From contig NC_015589.1 in NCBI RefSeq assembly GCF_000215085.1, positions 1,364,001 to 1,428,000 of the forward strand: a stretch of DNA of 64,000 nt, written 5' to 3'. Each line of letters starts with the position of its first letter. The first letter of the stretch is position 1. The position numbers and the translations under genes are program-made. This document shows, piece after piece, positions 24,196 to 37,635 of this stretch. The notes under the pieces are model-generated. The model was not told where the DNA came from and searched no databases. It saw nothing but the letters and a program-made list of their open reading frames with translations. The DNA is from Desulforamulus ruminis DSM 2154. Lineage in GTDB: Bacteria > Bacillota > Desulfotomaculia > Desulfotomaculales > Desulfotomaculaceae.

Positions 24196-24357
24196 AACCT
24201 TCTCCACTCGTGCAAGCTTTGGCACATACATAGCTAGGGATTGAGTCCCAGCCACATTAGATTAAACCTTAAGCCGGTAGAACCTGTTAACCCGTTAGCG
24301 TCTCTCGACATTTCCGGGCAGTGGCATTTGTCTATGCAGAAGCCTCACCTAACGAAG
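24196..24357 (-). ncRNA. M-box (ykoK) Mg2+ riboswitch
   Basis: Read on the minus strand, this matches the M-box consensus in order: CTTCGTTAGGTGAGGC at the 5' end, CACTGCCCGGAAATGTCGAG, GACGCTAACGGGT, the TAACAGGTTCTACC segment, AATGTGGCTGGGA and finally GCCAAAGCTTGC. M-boxes fold on Mg2+ and usually turn off Mg2+ transporter genes by exposing a terminator, which is present at 24136-24171. Confidence 0.93.
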
Positions 24358-24380
24358 AAAATATTGATTTGCCTAGTTCC

Positions 24381-30037: not shown

Positions 30038-30634
30038 TTGCCCCTGGAAGTGCAATTGTTAGTGGAGCAAAGCAAAAAAGGTGATCGAAACGCGTTTGAA
30101 CACTTGGTTCAAATGTACGAAAATAAGGTATATACCATTGCCTACCGCCTGATGGGGAACCATGCGGATGCCTCTGATCTGGCCCAGGAAGCTTTTATTA
30201 AAATATACCAGGCTCTCCCGAACTTTCGCGGAGATGCCAGTTTCAGCACTTGGATTTACCATATTACCGTAAACGTCTGTCGGGATGAACTGCGCAAGAA
30301 GCAGAGAAGGCCTACGGTATCGCTGGATGATTCACCCAATCAGGGGAATACTACATATGAACTGCGCTCTAACGGTCCCACCCCTGAAGAAGCGCTGGAC
30401 CGCAACGAAACCCAGGTCATGGTACAGCAGTGTTTGAGTACCCTGCCGGATGATTATCGCATAATATTAGTAATGAGGGAAATCCAAGAATTATCTTACG
30501 ATGAAATTGCTGAAACCCTGGGCTGTTCACTGGGTACGGTGAAATCCAGGCTCAGTAGAGCCAGGCAAGCTTTAAAGGAAAAAATAACTAAGCAAATGGA
30601 ACTTTTAGCCCCCTACGATCGTCTAGCTAAGTAA
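30038..30634 (+). CDS. ECF RNA polymerase sigma factor, SigW-like
   Basis: A 198-residue extracytoplasmic-function sigma factor. Region 2: NAFEHLVQMYENKVYTIAYRLMGNHADASDLAQEAFIKIYQALPNFRGDASFSTWIYHITVNVCRDELRK. Region 4: LSTLPDDYRIILVMREIQELSYDEIAETLGCSLGTVKSRLSRAR. It is closest in pattern to the SigW/RpoE-like envelope-stress group. The next gene, 14 nt downstream, encodes a zinc-binding anti-sigma factor, so the two form a regulatory pair. The TTG start is supported by GAGGAGGGGG. Confidence 0.92.
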   Translation: MPLEVQLLVEQSKKGDRNAFEHLVQMYENKVYTIAYRLMGNHADASDLAQEAFIKIYQALPNFRGDASFSTWIYHITVNVCRDELRKKQRRPTVSLDDSPNQGNTTYELRSNGPTPEEALDRNETQVMVQQCLSTLPDDYRIILVMREIQELSYDEIAETLGCSLGTVKSRLSRARQALKEKITKQMELLAPYDRLAK

Positions 30635-30648
30635 AGGAGGGGTGTTCC

Positions 30649-31713
30649 GTGTACTGCCAGGATATTTTAGAAAAACTTTCGCTCTACGTGGACGGAGTCC
30701 TGGATGCTGCCGATCAACAGGCAGTTCAGGAGCACTTGGCATGCTGCCCGGCCTGCAGGTCTGAGCTGGAAGAGCTCACCTTGGCTATGGGCATGCTCCA
30801 GGAACTCCCTGAACTAACTCCACCCGCTGATTTTAGGGTAAAATTAATGGAAAAAATTGAACAATTACCTGCTCCTATACAGGCGCCTCAACATAAACCT
30901 TGGTATGAACGTGTGGTGGGAGTAACCAGAAAATCCTGGTACCGCACTGCCGCTGTTGCCGCGGTTATGGCCATGACCTTGGGGTTGACTGCCCTTTGGG
31001 AGAAGGACGGTAATGAATTTCTTCCCATTGATCCCAAACCTCCGGGAGTTGAGAACCCGTCGAACCACAATTTGGCCCTTGAACCCGGTGAAACCCAGGA
31101 AAATCCTCAGGAAACGAATCAGCCGGAAACAAAACCTGAGGTCAATACTCCCAGTCAGGGAGGGACCCCAAACACATCCCAGCCTTCTAACACAAACAGG
31201 CAGGGTACAAAATCGACACCTTCAAATCAACTTAGTGTTGAAAGTTATGTACCCAAGAGCAGTGAAGGTCTGGTTTCTCGAACCAGTACTTTAAAGGTGG
31301 ATGTTCAAGACCTTGGGGCCGCAGTGAAAGCACTGGGAACGGTTGTTCAAAATAACGGGGGATCGATTGTTACACCTTATTCCGAAACCGGCGGAGTTGG
31401 CAGTATCAGTGTAAGATTCCCGGCCAATGTTTTTAAGTCCGCGGAAAACCAGTTGATGTCTTTGGGAGTTGTTATCTCCTATCTGCCTACGGAGAAAGAC
31501 CTTAGTGACCAGCACGGAGAGATCAAGAAAAATATTGAACAGCTTCAGGCCAAGGTCGGCGAATTAAAAGGTAAACTGGCGGCGGAAGAGGCAAATCAGG
31601 AACTGGAAAAACAACTGCGGGATGCTGAAAATGATTTAAACCAACAGATTAAAACCATCCAGGGGTTGGAAGAGCGTAGTACTTATGGCATAATTAATAT
31701 TACTTTAATTTAA
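30649..31713 (+). CDS. Transmembrane anti-sigma factor with DUF4349 domain
   Basis: A 354-residue protein. The N-terminal zinc-finger anti-sigma domain has HLACCPACRSEL (the His-x3-Cys-x2-Cys ligands of ZAS/zf-HC2). One transmembrane helix (TAAVAAVMAMTLGLTAL, about residues 102-118) is followed by a ~90-residue Pro/Asn/Thr-rich linker and a C-terminal DUF4349 domain (VSRTSTLKVDVQDLGAAVKALG) ending in a coiled coil with many Lys and Glu residues. It probably traps the ECF sigma at the membrane and senses envelope state outside. The GTG follows AAAGGAGGGGTGTTCC. Confidence 0.88.
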   Translation: MYCQDILEKLSLYVDGVLDAADQQAVQEHLACCPACRSELEELTLAMGMLQELPELTPPADFRVKLMEKIEQLPAPIQAPQHKPWYERVVGVTRKSWYRTAAVAAVMAMTLGLTALWEKDGNEFLPIDPKPPGVENPSNHNLALEPGETQENPQETNQPETKPEVNTPSQGGTPNTSQPSNTNRQGTKSTPSNQLSVESYVPKSSEGLVSRTSTLKVDVQDLGAAVKALGTVVQNNGGSIVTPYSETGGVGSISVRFPANVFKSAENQLMSLGVVISYLPTEKDLSDQHGEIKKNIEQLQAKVGELKGKLAAEEANQELEKQLRDAENDLNQQIKTIQGLEERSTYGIINITLI

Positions 31714-31717
31714 ACGG

Positions 31718-31751
31718 GCCGGAAGAATATTTCTTCCGGCTTATTCTTTTT
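31718..31751 (+). terminator. Terminator of the ECF sigma/anti-sigma operon
   Basis: A perfect 10-bp stem GCCGGAAGAA/TTCTTCCGGC with a three-base loop, then TTATTCTTTTT. Confidence 0.88.
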
Positions 31752-31906
31752 AAAAAGCTTTTGGCAACCCCTAACTCCAGAGATGATTACAAAAAGATAA
31801 CCTTTTACAAAGGAGATCAATTTTTTCTTGTATTATAGTTTTAATATGGTTTAAAATAATCTTGTAATGAATGGAAATAATTTTCCAAACTAGGAGGTTA
31901 TAAATT

Positions 31907-32131
31907 ATGAAAGAAAAAGTTAAAGAGGTTTTGGAACAGGTTCGTCCTTTTCTGCAAAGAGACGGAGGAGATGTGGAATTTGTAGATATGGATGAGAACG
32001 GGGTTGTTAAGGTAAAATTAAAAGGAGCTTGTGGAAGCTGCCCCGGCGCCCTTTATACTCTGAAAAACGGTGTTGAACGGACGCTTAAACAGCAAGTTCC
32101 GGAAGTTACAGAAGTTATAAGAGTAGACTAG
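31907..32131 (+). CDS. NifU C-terminal-domain protein (Cys form)
   Basis: A 74-residue stand-alone NifU C-terminal domain, a scaffold or carrier that passes [Fe-S] clusters to target proteins. It has the family pattern [37 protein letters not shown], with the cluster-binding cysteines Cys42 and Cys45. About 190 nt downstream lies a paralogue, roughly 70% identical by eye, in which the second Cys codon is TGA. The ATG follows AGGAGG, and a terminator follows the gene, so the two paralogues can be expressed separately. Confidence 0.92.
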
Positions 32132-32146
32132 CGGATACATAGACTA

Positions 32147-32180
32147 ACCACATGCCAACCGGCGTGTGGTTTTTCTTTTT
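32147..32180 (+). terminator. Terminator after the Cys-form NifU gene
   Basis: Stem ACCACATGCC/GGCGTGTGGT (one T-G pair), loop AACC, then TTTTCTTTTT. Confidence 0.85.
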
Positions 32181-32324
32181 ATTATAGTGTTTATTTTTAG
32201 TATGATTTTTCGGGAATCAGGAGGACTTCCCAATACTAGGCGTCCCCTTGGTTTCCTTTATTTTTTGTTTGAAACAAAAGGGTTCTGGAGATATTTATTT
32301 ATAATAGTGAAGGAGGTGAATGAA

Positions 32325-32546
32325 ATGCGTGAAAAAGTGGCAGAAGCCTTAGAGCAAGTGCGGCCCTTTCTGCAAAGGGATGGCGGCGACGTGGAATTAG
32401 TGGATGTTGACGACACGGGGATTGTTAAGGTGAGATTAAAAGGGGCCTGCGGTGGCTGACCGGGGGCAACCAATACCCTGAGAAATGGGATTGAGCGGTC
32501 GCTCAAGCAAGCGGTTCCGGAAGTAAAGAGCGTAGTGCAGGTTTAA
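32325..32546 (+). CDS. NifU C-terminal-domain protein, probable selenoprotein (Sec45)
   Basis: From the ATG at 32325 (AAGGAGGTGAATGAA upstream) the frame encodes [20 protein letters not shown] and onward to LKGACGG, meets a TGA at 32457-32459, then continues in the same frame with [20 protein letters not shown] to a TAA at 32546. The TGA falls exactly where the neighbouring paralogue has Cys45 of its CxxC cluster motif. Sequence after the TGA stays homologous to the family with no further stop or frameshift. A SECIS-like hairpin follows the TGA. I therefore read the product as 73 residues with a C-x-x-U motif. The rival reading is a single nonsense mutation (TGC or TGT to TGA). No sel genes are in the window to confirm the machinery. 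Confidence 0.75.
32457..32500 (+). promoter_or_regulatory. Bacterial SECIS-like hairpin
   Basis: A lower stem GACCG/CGGTC (32458-32462, 32496-32500) starts inside the TGA. An upper stem AAU-A-CCC/GGG-AUU (32472-32478, 32487-32492, one bulged A) closes an 8-nt apical loop UGAGAAAU (32479-32486). The loop begins 20 nt after the UGA and has a G in its second position; published bacterial SECIS models call for an apical loop about 16-37 nt from the UGA with a G among its first two bases. Confidence 0.65.
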
Positions 32547-32575
32547 AAGATAAAGAAAATTTAGCTCAGCCAGCA

Positions 32576-32609
32576 AAAATCCCCTTGCCTTTTCAGGTCT
32601 GGGGATTTT
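32576..32609. terminator. Bidirectional terminator
   Basis: AAAATCCCC (32576-32584) and GGGGATTTT (32601-32609), with U-rich sequence on either strand. It serves the convergent NifU-Sec and LysR genes; the LysR stop lies in its loop. Confidence 0.75.
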
Positions 32610-33492
32610 GTTTTAAGGTAAAATTGATAAAAGTTTCTACAATTGGGCCTCTGTTTTTGCGTCGGGGGTAAATCAGATATAAATTCCTTTTCATGGGCAG
32701 GTCTTTAATTTTTACCGTAACAATTCTTTTTAAGCTTTGTTCCTTATACACAGCCCAACGGGAGACGATGGAAATGCCTGCTCCGGTTTCCACTGCATTA
32801 ACGACCGCCCCGGTACTGCCGAGTTCCAGAGCGATGTTAAGTTTTTCCGGGATCAGACCGCCCCGGGCCAGATGACCTTCCACCACCGTCCGGGTGCCGG
32901 AGCCCAATTCCCGCCATATCAAAGGTTCTTCGGCGAATTGTTCCAAGGTTATTTCGGAAACATCCGCAAAGGGATGTTCCGGCGGGACAATCACCACCAG
33001 CTCGTCGGAGAAAAACTGAATTCCTTCAATGCGCTTGTTGTTCGGCAGCATGCCGACGGCGCCAAGATGGGCCGATTCCTCTAAAAGCTTTTGTACGGCT
33101 TCCCTGGAATCCCCAATATGTAGCACCGTTTGCACATCCGGATAAGCCTTTTTAAAGGCTCCGATAATTGATGGAAGAATATAATGACCGGGTATGCTGC
33201 TGGCCCAAACAATGAAACGCCCTCTTATTTCACCGGACAGATTCAGAATTTCTTTCTCAGCCCGCAGCATTAAATCCAACATTTCCCGGGCGTGCCGGTA
33301 AAAAACCTCCCCCGCCGGGGTAAGTATAATACCACGACCCCGGCGTTCCACCAAGGAAGTTCCAAAATGGTCTTCCAGGGCTGCCAGTTGCTTGCTGATG
33401 GCCGGCTGCGTAATGTGAATTTCCTGTGCTGCCAGTGATAAATTTTTCTTTTCTGCTACGGCGATAAAGGTCTGCAGTGTTGATAAATTCAT
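32593..33492 (-). CDS. LysR-family transcriptional regulator
   Basis: A 299-residue LysR regulator: an N-terminal winged helix-turn-helix (MNLSTLQTFIAVAEKKNLSLAAQEIHITQPAISKQLAALEDHFG) and a two-lobed effector-binding domain (starting GRFIVWASSIPGHYILPSIIGAFKK). The effector is unknown. It converges on the selenoprotein candidate, and LysR proteins accompany selenium genes in some Clostridia, but no direct link can be shown here. The upstream 245 bp up to the nitrilase gene hold no recognisable gene. Confidence 0.9.
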   Translation of the reverse strand: MNLSTLQTFIAVAEKKNLSLAAQEIHITQPAISKQLAALEDHFGTSLVERRGRGIILTPAGEVFYRHAREMLDLMLRAEKEILNLSGEIRGRFIVWASSIPGHYILPSIIGAFKKAYPDVQTVLHIGDSREAVQKLLEESAHLGAVGMLPNNKRIEGIQFFSDELVVIVPPEHPFADVSEITLEQFAEEPLIWRELGSGTRTVVEGHLARGGLIPEKLNIALELGSTGAVVNAVETGAGISIVSRWAVYKEQSLKRIVTVKIKDLPMKRNLYLIYPRRKNRGPIVETFINFTLKQNPQT

Positions 33493-35040: not shown

Positions 35041-36207
35041 ATGGCAGTAGGTGAACAGGTATTTGGTTATTTTATCCCCACCGTTAACTTAATGGGTGTA
35101 GGAGCTCACAAGGAAATTCCGGATCAGGTCAAAACTCTGGGTGGAAGCAATGTTTTGATTGTAACCGATGCATTTCTAGGGCGTTCCGGTGGAATGGCCG
35201 ACGACATTAAAAAAATGTTGGAAGAAGCAGGAGTGAAAGTAACGATTTATGCCGGCGCTGAGCCGAACCCCACCGATAAAAACGTTCATGATGGATTGAA
35301 GGTTTACCAGGAATGCGGCGCCGATATGATCCTCTCTCTGGGCGGCGGCAGTTCTCACGATTGTGCCAAGGGCGTTGGACTGGTGGCCAGCAACGGCGGA
35401 AATATTCGGGATTTTGAGGGTATTAACAAGAGCACCAAGCCCATGCCTCCCTTTATTGCTGTCAATACTACTGCCGGGACGGCTTCTGAAATGACCCGTT
35501 TTTGCATTATTACCAATACCAGCAATAAAGTTAAAATGGCTATTGTGGATTGGCGTTGCACGCCCAATGTAGCCATCAACGATCCCCTGTTAATGGCCGG
35601 TATGCCCCCGGCATTAACCGCCGCTACCGGGATGGATGCCTTAACCCATGCGGTTGAAGCCTATGTTTCTACCATTGCCACTCCGGTAACCGATTCCGCC
35701 GCTTTAATGGCCATGAAGTTGATCTCCGAGAACCTGCGTAATGCCGTAGCCAACGGTCAGAATATGGCGGCCCGTGACAAGATGGCTTATGCCGAGTTTT
35801 TGGCAGGAATGGCTTTCAACAATGCTTCCCTCGGTTATGTTCATGCCATGGCTCACCAGCTTGGCGGTTTCTATAACCTGCCCCACGGCGTTTGCAATGC
35901 CATCCTGCTGCCCCATGTGGAAGCCTTTAACCTAATTGCCTGCCCTGAGCGCTTTGTTGACATTGCCAAGGCCATGGGCGAAAATGTAGAAGGTTTATCC
36001 GTACGGGATGCTGCGGACAAAGCCTTGGCGGCCATTCGCAAGCTTTCTGCCGATGTCGGAATTCCGGCCGGTTTAACTGCACTGAATGTGAAAGAAGAAG
36101 ACCTGAAAATTATGGCTGAGAATGCCATGAAGGATGCCTGCAGCTTTACCAATCCGAGAACTGCCACCTTAGACGATGTTATTGGCATCTTCAAGGCTGC
36201 TATGTAA
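35041..36207 (+). CDS. Iron-containing alcohol dehydrogenase (first copy)
   Basis: A 388-residue group III (Fe-dependent) alcohol dehydrogenase. The NAD-binding segment has LGGGSSHDCAKG near residue 100, and the metal site has AMAHQLGGFYNLPHGVCNAILLPHV plus the earlier Asp and His of DALTHAVEAY. These enzymes interconvert primary alcohols or 1,3-diols and aldehydes. It is transcribed from a sigma-54 promoter and ends in its own terminator. With the downstream aldehyde:ferredoxin oxidoreductase it could feed alcohol-derived aldehydes into ferredoxin reduction. Confidence 0.93.
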   Translation: MAVGEQVFGYFIPTVNLMGVGAHKEIPDQVKTLGGSNVLIVTDAFLGRSGGMADDIKKMLEEAGVKVTIYAGAEPNPTDKNVHDGLKVYQECGADMILSLGGGSSHDCAKGVGLVASNGGNIRDFEGINKSTKPMPPFIAVNTTAGTASEMTRFCIITNTSNKVKMAIVDWRCTPNVAINDPLLMAGMPPALTAATGMDALTHAVEAYVSTIATPVTDSAALMAMKLISENLRNAVANGQNMAARDKMAYAEFLAGMAFNNASLGYVHAMAHQLGGFYNLPHGVCNAILLPHVEAFNLIACPERFVDIAKAMGENVEGLSVRDAADKALAAIRKLSADVGIPAGLTALNVKEEDLKIMAENAMKDACSFTNPRTATLDDVIGIFKAAM

Positions 36208-36250
36208 TTTTTGCCATCATAAACCCCTTGAAATATTGTGTATGTGTATG

Positions 36251-36281
36251 GGTGGAGTTGTCTCCACCTTTTTTATTTTTT
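36251..36281 (+). terminator. Terminator after the first alcohol dehydrogenase
   Basis: A 7-bp stem GGTGGAG/CTCCACC with a TTGT loop followed by TTTTTTATTTTTT. A second hairpin GCTGCAG/CTGCAGC (36320-36340) lies further down the same gap. Confidence 0.85.
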
Positions 36282-36468
36282 AAAAATTTTCAGGCTAAGA
36301 AATCTAAGCATTTACTAGGGCTGCAGCCTTCTCCTGCAGCTTGGTATAGGCAAGTTTTCTTTATTTACTCCAACCCTAGGCAGGGATGAATTTATTCATA
36401 TAGAATTATTTATATATATATTTTAAAATTGATTTTAAATTTTGAATATTTAGCCGGAGGGCGATGGC

Positions 36469-37635
36469 ATGCAGACCAGTAATCTTTTAAATATCAGTAA
36501 GTTTGTTGCGCCTGAAGTCATCTTTGGATTTGGAGCCCTGAGTCAGATCGGGGAGAGTGCTGTTCGTCTGGGCATGAAAAAAGCTTTTTTAGTCAGCGAC
36601 CAGGGGGTTATTGAAGCCGGGTGGGCCGAGAAGGCCATAGAGTACCTGAAGGAAGTTGGCATTGATTCGAATATATGGTGTGGCCTTACCACCAATCCTA
36701 AAGACTGTGAAGTGGCTGAAGGAGCACGTCTTTACCTGGCAAGCGACTGCAACGGCATTATCGCCGTAGGAGGGGGCAGCCCCATTGATGTGGCCAAAGC
36801 CATTGCCATTTTAGCCACCAATGGGGGACAGATCAAGGATTACGAAGGGGTTAATAAAATAAGCAGCCCGCTGCCGCCAATGGTCATTGTTCCTACCACC
36901 GGAGGATCCGGGGCGGAGGTTTCTCAATTTTCCATGATTGTGGAAAAGGCCAGGCAGGTAAAAATGGCCATTATATCCAAGTCCCTTGTTCCGGATATTG
37001 CTATTGTGGACCCCCTTACCTTGCAGACCAAAAGCGCCCGGTTAACGGCAGCCACCGGAGTGGATGCCCTGAGTCATGCCATCGAAGCCTATGTTTCCCT
37101 GGCGGCTACGCCCCTGACAGATGTACATGCGCTGTCGGCCATCCAGTTGGTTTCCGCTAATCTTAGAGAGTCCGTTGCCTGCCGGACCAACCTGGAAGCA
37201 AAATCAGCCATGGCCATGGCCAGTCTGCAGGCCGGGTTGGCTTTTTCCAATGCCATACTGGGGGCGACCCATGCCATGACCCATCAGGTAGATGGATTGC
37301 TTGATCTGCATCATGGTGAAACCAACGGCATATTACTTCCATATGTGATGGAATTTAATTTAATTTCCTGTGTCAATAAATTTGCCAACATTGCCGCGGC
37401 ACTAGGGGTACAAACAGCCGGTTTAAGTAAATGGAAGGCTGCTGAAAAAGGAATTTCCTCTGTCCGGAGGTTTTTTAGAGATATTGGCATACCCGAACGC
37501 CTGTCCCAAGTGGGAATGAAAGAAGAACATGTGCAAAAACTGAGTTTGAATGCTTTGAAAGACGCCTGTTTGGTAACCAACCCCAGGGATGCCGGTGCGG
37601 AAGAAATTGAAGCTCTTTATCTGAGGGCTTTGTAG
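36469..37635 (+). CDS. Iron-containing alcohol dehydrogenase (second copy)
   Basis: Also 388 residues and a paralogue of the preceding enzyme: VGGGSPIDVAKAIA for NAD, DALSHAIEAYVS and ATHAMTHQVDGLLDLHHGETNGILLPYV for the iron site. The sequences differ widely, so this is an old duplication or separate acquisition. The ATG follows GCCGGAGGGCG. The gene is 12 nt upstream of the histidine kinase, so they are probably cotranscribed. No sigma-54 consensus with correct spacing is seen in its 260-bp upstream gap. Confidence 0.93.
   Translation: MQTSNLLNISKFVAPEVIFGFGALSQIGESAVRLGMKKAFLVSDQGVIEAGWAEKAIEYLKEVGIDSNIWCGLTTNPKDCEVAEGARLYLASDCNGIIAVGGGSPIDVAKAIAILATNGGQIKDYEGVNKISSPLPPMVIVPTTGGSGAEVSQFSMIVEKARQVKMAIISKSLVPDIAIVDPLTLQTKSARLTAATGVDALSHAIEAYVSLAATPLTDVHALSAIQLVSANLRESVACRTNLEAKSAMAMASLQAGLAFSNAILGATHAMTHQVDGLLDLHHGETNGILLPYVMEFNLISCVNKFANIAAALGVQTAGLSKWKAAEKGISSVRRFFRDIGIPERLSQVGMKEEHVQKLSLNALKDACLVTNPRDAGAEEIEALYLRAL

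Follow-up and report, generated by a model that had tools for sequence, protein, structure and literature searches.

The stretch of DNA examined here (the window, 64,000 nucleotides of the Desulforamulus ruminis DSM 2154 genome, which is assembled as one contig of 3,969,014 bases) contains two tandem genes for small NifU-domain proteins. The upstream gene encodes a Cys-type protein with the motif CGSC. The second gene, which begins 193 bases past the end of the first and follows a Shine-Dalgarno-like sequence (AAGGAGGTGA), carries one in-frame TGA; when this TGA is read as selenocysteine (Sec, U), a frame of 73 residues results, with U45 in the context GAC-GG-U-PGA. The two products align without an internal gap at 73% identity, CGGU facing CGSC. 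This agrees with a preliminary description of the locus, which held that the frame is intact on both sides of the TGA and homologous to the neighboring Cys paralogue.

The predicted Sec-type product is a stand-alone NifU C-terminal (Nfu) domain. Residues 5-71 match PF01106 (NifU) at 101.6 bits against a curated cut-off of 27 (E 2.5e-29), and the protein misses the cut-offs of the full-length models TIGR02000 (NifU; 59.8 vs 273.3 bits) and TIGR03341 (NfuA; 45.9 vs 269.35 bits). NCBIfam release 20 held no selenoprotein model matching it. An AlphaFold2 model of the protein (mean pLDDT 90.2) adopts the Nfu fold and was matched by Foldseek, at E <=0.001, to five Nfu-domain structures (2z51, 2m5o, 2jnv, 1xhj and 1veh); residues 42 and 45 sit between strand 33-39 and helix 46-63 of this model.

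Genes for an ECF sigma factor and an anti-sigma-like protein lie upstream of the pair and recur at related loci. An ECF sigma gene on the same strand was found upstream of 37 of 57 Sec loci vs 5 of 61 Cys loci, and a zf-HC2/DUF4349 anti-sigma gene upstream of 38 of 57 vs 5 of 61; the 57 are those Sec loci whose available upstream sequence spans 2.5 kb or more, and the 61 Cys loci include other phyla. No Fe-S assembly partner was recognized among the recurrent neighbors, of which the Pfam scan covered those in the window. Two terminator-like sites were found in 31600-32700, against 1.3 expected in shuffles, and they weakly suggest that each D. ruminis nifU gene may be transcribed alone. Elsewhere in the window we noted an M-box (ykoK) magnesium riboswitch (24196-24363, minus strand, 147.5 bits) and, at 35041-37635, two consecutive open reading frames of 388 residues, the first an iron-containing alcohol dehydrogenase by Pfam and the second similar by eye.

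Table 1. Features of the nifU region of D. ruminis, in window coordinates
Feature	Position	Strand	Remark
ECF sigma factor gene	30038..30634	+	recurrent upstream neighbor; Pfam
Anti-sigma-like gene (zf-HC2 + DUF4349)	30649..31713	+	recurrent upstream neighbor; Pfam
Terminator-like hairpin	31716..31742	+	between anti-sigma gene and Cys-type nifU
Cys-type NifU paralogue	31907..32131	+	CGSC; 74 residues
Terminator-like hairpin	32146..32171	+	between both nifU genes
Shine-Dalgarno-like sequence	32310..32319	+	by eye
Sec-type nifU (nfu-like) gene	32325..32546	+	73 residues with U45; ATG at 32325; TAA stop (32544-32546) counted in
In-frame UGA, proposed Sec codon	32457..32459	+	second position of CxxC
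ACC (codon +6) to GG of codon +10	32475..32489	+	two predicted C-G pairs before hairpin
Putative SECIS core AUUGAGC-GGUC-GCUCAA	32490..32506	+	invariant apart from last two loop positions, 66/66 distinct regions
Putative SECIS stem, 6 bp	32491-32496 / 32501-32506	+	apical loop 32497-32500; folded

An invariant hairpin downstream of the TGA

A script gathered 198 distinct NifU-domain stretches, one of its sources being a collection search that contributed the best 80 of at least 479 places. The set comprises 76 Sec-type genes, 121 Cys-type genes and one fragment. Among 66 distinct 60-base regions from Sec-type genes, the 17-base stretch ATTGAGCGGNNGCTCAA varies at its two N positions only, and all 66 regions fold into the 6-bp hairpin UUGAGC-GGNN-GCUCAA. 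The apical loop of this hairpin begins after 37 nt from the UGA, a distance at the limit of the bacterial SECIS model in the literature, and the D. ruminis loop, GGUC, is also that of E. coli fdhF. The C-G pairs predicted just before the hairpin are possibly part of the same element. Compensatory base changes in the stem were absent from the 66 regions because the stem never varies. Rfam returned nothing at gathering score for the Sec gene region; with permissive thresholds, Rfam models of other families matched twice at chance level, and one of these matches overlies the hairpin.

Codon counts rest on 74 Sec and 120 Cys genes, after exclusion of L178 (Sec, with an assembly gap inside), L179 (Sec, cut at a contig end, with its hairpin intact nevertheless) and L003 (Cys, frameshifted). 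L003 comes from a genome, G007, in which selA is fragmented as well, and both defects are probably assembly errors. Counted from the TGA, codon +6 is ACC and codons +11 to +15 are ATT GAG CGG NNG CTC in all 74 intact Sec genes, whereas the 120 Cys genes use several synonyms at columns +6, +11, +12, +13 and +15. Synonymous variation at +11, +12, +13 and +15 is thus zero in the Sec genes vs a synonymous entropy of 0.97 to 2.40 bits in the Cys genes. Likewise, the synonymous difference pS across +11..+16 is 0.908 in Cys genes but 0.033 in Sec genes, which elsewhere, block by block, range from 0.51 to 0.77. The 13 specified bases of the motif are complete in 2 of the 120 Cys genes, and the hairpin energy of -7.1 kcal/mol, found in every one of the 74 Sec genes, is reached by 3 of the 120. 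When codons were redrawn synonymously, using the codon usage of Sec genes elsewhere in their sequence, 0.27% of draws attained this energy, and all four fixed codons came up with a probability of 0.0027 per gene; because Sec genes share kinship these trials are dependent, and the control is provided by the Cys genes and by the other columns of the Sec genes.

When 299 genomes of the phylum were scanned with a pattern allowing up to 3 mismatches, 28 places in 27 genomes were returned. The 19 places with TGA had 0 mismatches throughout, and the nine with TGC had 1 to 3; the scan counts the Cys codon itself as one mismatch and detects signal-bearing genes alone. For two of the TGC places, in G230 and G221, the Cys codon was the sole mismatch.

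According to PMC1088965, bacterial SECIS elements commonly have a guanosine in a small apical loop. Judged by its sequence, its position and its constraint at synonymous sites, the downstream invariant hairpin is a predicted SECIS signal; a search for such an element was among the checks proposed in the preliminary description. The frame past this signal is also under purifying selection, with pN/pS at +17..+28 of 0.12 in 9 genes of the genus and 0.24 in all 74. Upstream of the TGA the within-genus value is 0.45, inflated by ungapped two-residue length differences. The stop codon lies 28 or 29 codons past the TGA in all 74 intact copies, and frame breaks after the TGA, which the preliminary description had named as grounds for calling the gene a pseudogene, were found in none of them.

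Distribution, Sec machinery and the reading of the UGA

We searched 120 related genomes with the D. ruminis protein and obtained a NifU-domain match in 111. Rows with one TGA numbered 75, in 73 genomes; all stop-bearing rows carried TGA, and neither TAA nor TAG was seen. Stop-free rows numbered 65, a few of them fragmentary, in 61 genomes. A tally made by hand from the table of matches gave 50 genomes with the Sec form only, 23 with both forms and 38 with the Cys form only; the figure of 50 among 73 carriers with no NifU-domain gene found besides the Sec form depends on one query at E 0.001 and on largely draft assemblies. Each of the eight searched genomes of the same genus (G001 to G008) has the Sec gene. 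Within the scope of the search, the Sec form was seen in the order of D. ruminis and, outside it, in one family of the same phylum (f46), where eight of the ten genomes drawn had it; one place in this family (in G375) has the same 50 bases as a gene of the Syntrophomonadaceae (L077). One locus in the collection, L057, belongs to a deltaproteobacterial MAG. Of 118 genomes from the phylum of this MAG, 110 matched, and no TGA row, but one row with two TAG, occurred among the matches listed. In ten genomes from other groups, none of 13 NifU rows contained a stop. The bacteria that carry Sec-type NifU form a group of sulfate reducers and syntrophs. Two genomes have tandem pairs of Sec-type nifU with the hairpin in both copies (L187/L023 in G037 and L188/L031 in G027).

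Published criteria for selenoprotein genes include an in-frame TGA that aligns with Cys and is shared by two or more distinct sequences, as well as a SECIS-like stem-loop downstream with G in a small apical loop (PMC1088965). Here, the TGA falls in the same column as Cys when the 76 Sec-type and 121 Cys-type distinct genes are aligned, and in all 76 it occupies the second position of C-x-x-C and never the first, a placement well past anything expected by chance; relatives therefore carry U or C at this site, and the preliminary claim that the TGA replaces exactly the second Cys of the motif extends to the whole set. The TGA recurs in 73 of the 120 related genomes, and a SECIS-like stem-loop with G in its small apical loop (GGNN) accompanies it in 66 of 66 distinct regions.

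The D. ruminis genome also encodes the machinery that had been proposed as a check. selA (623.1 bits) adjoins selB (361.7 bits); tRNA-Sec, with anticodon TCA, was detected by both the Rfam model and ARAGORN; and selD (399.1 bits) itself contains one in-frame TGA near its start, so the Sec pathway of this genome is predicted to decode at least one other UGA. Where SelA scores over the cut-off, 72 of 105 genomes have the Sec form, vs 1 of 6 where it does not (Fisher p 0.017, computed from hand-made lists of matches), a correlation that is weak because nearly all relatives, 112 of 120, have SelA over the cut-off. In G060 and G112, SelB and tRNA-Sec are present although SelA is not, which shows that assembly gaps play a part in the SelA absences. 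The exception among the relatives is G070 (84% complete), which carries a Sec-type nifU with an intact hairpin (L158) and in which selA was below the cut-off, selB absent at E 1e-60 and tRNA-Sec absent at E 1e-9. Its congener G028 has selA and tRNA-Sec, and its NifU is of Cys type (L202). The DNA around nifU in G070 matches that in G028.

Taken as a whole, the relatives, the machinery and the downstream hairpin support the selenocysteine reading put forward in the preliminary description, and we regard it as almost certain that Sec-type nifU encodes a selenoprotein. The UGA would be decoded by SelB and tRNA-Sec, steered by the hairpin with its loop 37 nt downstream.

Three other readings of the UGA were weighed. 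The UGA might act mainly as a selenium-dependent stop, yielding a 44-residue stub when selenium is lacking, so that the gene and its Cys paralogue together would work as a switch. D. ruminis does have such a paralogue in tandem, and a methanogen is described as using Cys forms under selenium depletion (PMC11097638), but both forms are present in just 23 of 73 carrier genomes, and purifying selection on the codons past the TGA shows that the full-length product matters; we consider this reading quite improbable. Highly improbable, in our estimation, is SECIS- and SelB-dependent decoding in which a Cys-charged, UGA-reading tRNA inserts Cys. Such tRNA variants exist in some bacteria and NifU-family proteins usually have Cys at this site, but selA and selD both exceed their cut-offs, SelA does so in nearly all relatives, and both detection methods identify the tRNA as tRNA-Sec. 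That the gene is a nonsense pseudogene or a sequencing error, as its broken frame in the standard code would have it, is scarcely credible given an identical TGA in 73 of the 120 related genomes, no other stop and fixed, selectively constrained codons downstream. Another genetic code, in which UGA would stand for an ordinary amino acid, was rejected: TGA occurs exclusively at the Cys column in the 76 genes and is accompanied by the hairpin in 75 of them, the remaining one, L178, having its assembly gap.

Exchange between Sec and Cys forms

In one genus (g23), the congeners L137 (G079) and L195 (G030) have TGA and TGT, respectively, in a nearly identical region with an identical hairpin. These two genes represent a Sec/Cys exchange within the genus, and since the hairpin persists beside the Cys codon of L195, the direction was probably Sec to Cys. 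The full SECIS motif is also kept in the Cys-type gene L209, and L052 is one base short of it; L195, L209 and L052 may all have switched from Sec to Cys and retained a fossil SECIS. PMC1794560 describes SECIS-like structures in two genes with a Cys codon, one for FdhA and one HesB-like. More generally, the Cys genes of relatives differ from the SECIS motif at a mean of 3.7 of 13 bases vs 4.5 for Cys genes elsewhere (n 60 and 60, p 0.012, kinship ignored), which fits old losses of the signal but could be due to codon usage. A protein tree (194 rows, 72 columns) contained 15 Cys/Sec label changes, 3 of them forced by starred branches, and is too poorly resolved for counting switches.

Function and relation to known Fe-S proteins

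The CxxC motif of Nfu holds a [4Fe-4S] cluster at the homodimer interface, and replacement of both Cys residues abolishes the function of yeast Nfu1, as described in PMC5014551. By homology, the Sec-type protein probably works as an Nfu-type carrier, in which two subunits would hold a [4Fe-4S] cluster through one Cys and one Sec each and then hand it on to client enzymes. The selenolate may alter the grip on the cluster, its redox potential or the speed of its transfer; alternatively, it may let an oxidized motif be reduced again easily. When 26 rows of both the Sec and the Cys type are aligned, 16 columns besides the U/C column are invariant, and Cys42 is kept. These retained positions, together with the 50 genomes in which the Sec form is the sole NifU-domain gene found and would have to do all NifU-domain work, argue that it would perform the job of an Nfu protein with a selenolate as ligand.

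The main rival to the cluster-ligand reading is a redox or other metal-binding role, in which the protein would be a selenoprotein but no Fe-S carrier and its C-x-x-U would form a selenol/thiol redox center or another metal or metalloid site. Anti-sigma factors of the zf-HC2 type sense thiol oxidation in some bacteria, and a gene of this type is, with the ECF sigma gene, a recurrent upstream neighbor. C-x-x-U is also a common redox motif among selenoproteins, and a 2026 review (PMC13188914) takes the view that most uncharacterized selenoproteins serve redox functions. Against such a role, the Sec form seems to replace the ordinary gene in the carriers where it is the only NifU-domain copy, the invariant columns are shared by Sec and Cys rows, and Sec and Cys are exchanged at the identical site inside one genus. 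We therefore consider a role other than that of a carrier unlikely, while giving it real weight.

Returning to the cluster carrier, we find it somewhat probable, from homology to the Cys proteins, that Sec is a ligand of a carried [4Fe-4S] cluster, and the explanation as a whole, a selenoprotein working as an Nfu-type carrier, seems reasonably probable. Whether the protein serves a whole lineage as a carrier that bridges [4Fe-4S] on two Cys and two Sec, making Fe-S trafficking selenium-dependent where it is the sole NifU-domain gene, we judge to be evenly balanced.

NifU and Nfu are absent by name from Table 1 of the 2026 review (PMC13188914), which lists 119 prokaryotic selenoprotein families and subfamilies. 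A 2006 survey (PMC1794560) gives the selenoproteins of D. reducens, a species now placed in the same genus as D. ruminis, as SelD, FdhA (2), FrhD (2), HdrA, a SelW-like and a DsbA-like protein; NifU is missing from that row. No mention of NifU or Nfu was found in the portions searched of deep-Sep (PMC12013277), PMC9312934 and PMC5029168, and, by the titles and abstract starts of the matches listed in a full-text literature search, a Sec-type NifU or Nfu is apparently unreported. This literature yielded no prior catalogue entry; an earlier annotation is possible in GenBank, supplementary tables or subscription papers, which lie outside its scope.

Fe-S carriers of the Nfu type are widespread and are characterized by their pair of cluster-binding Cys residues. 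If the reading is correct, the Sec form offers a natural experiment on the effect of a selenolate ligand on cluster binding and release, and in sulfate reducers and syntrophs the delivery of Fe-S clusters could be linked to the supply of selenium. The prokaryotic selenoproteome would also gain a family, one that standard gene calling would truncate at the TGA.

The HesB-like selenoproteins (TIGR01911) are likewise Sec forms in a family that includes Fe-S carriers, one distinct from NifU. Their motif is UxGP, as compared with CxxU in Sec-type NifU (PMC13188914, Table 1), and Desulfitobacterium hafniense is described as having a Cys-form HesB-like gene with a SECIS-like remnant (PMC1794560). The (2Fe-2S)-binding CopZ-like proteins and NF005503 resemble the present protein in being predicted selenoproteins named for Fe-S binding; they differ in their motifs (GxUC, CU and UxxC) and in having other domains and no NifU domain (PMC13188914, Table 1). 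The closest comparison is with NFU1, NfuA and CnfU (PF01106), with which the D. ruminis protein has in common the whole domain, the fold, the first Cys and the DGGDVE and GAC stretches. Unlike these proteins, it consists of the stand-alone domain alone, its second ligand Cys is encoded as Sec, and its gene carries a putative SECIS hairpin within the coding sequence. An Nfu carrier has Cys at both positions of the motif; the D. ruminis protein has C-x-x-U, and is therefore best filed as a Sec variant rather than as an ordinary Nfu.
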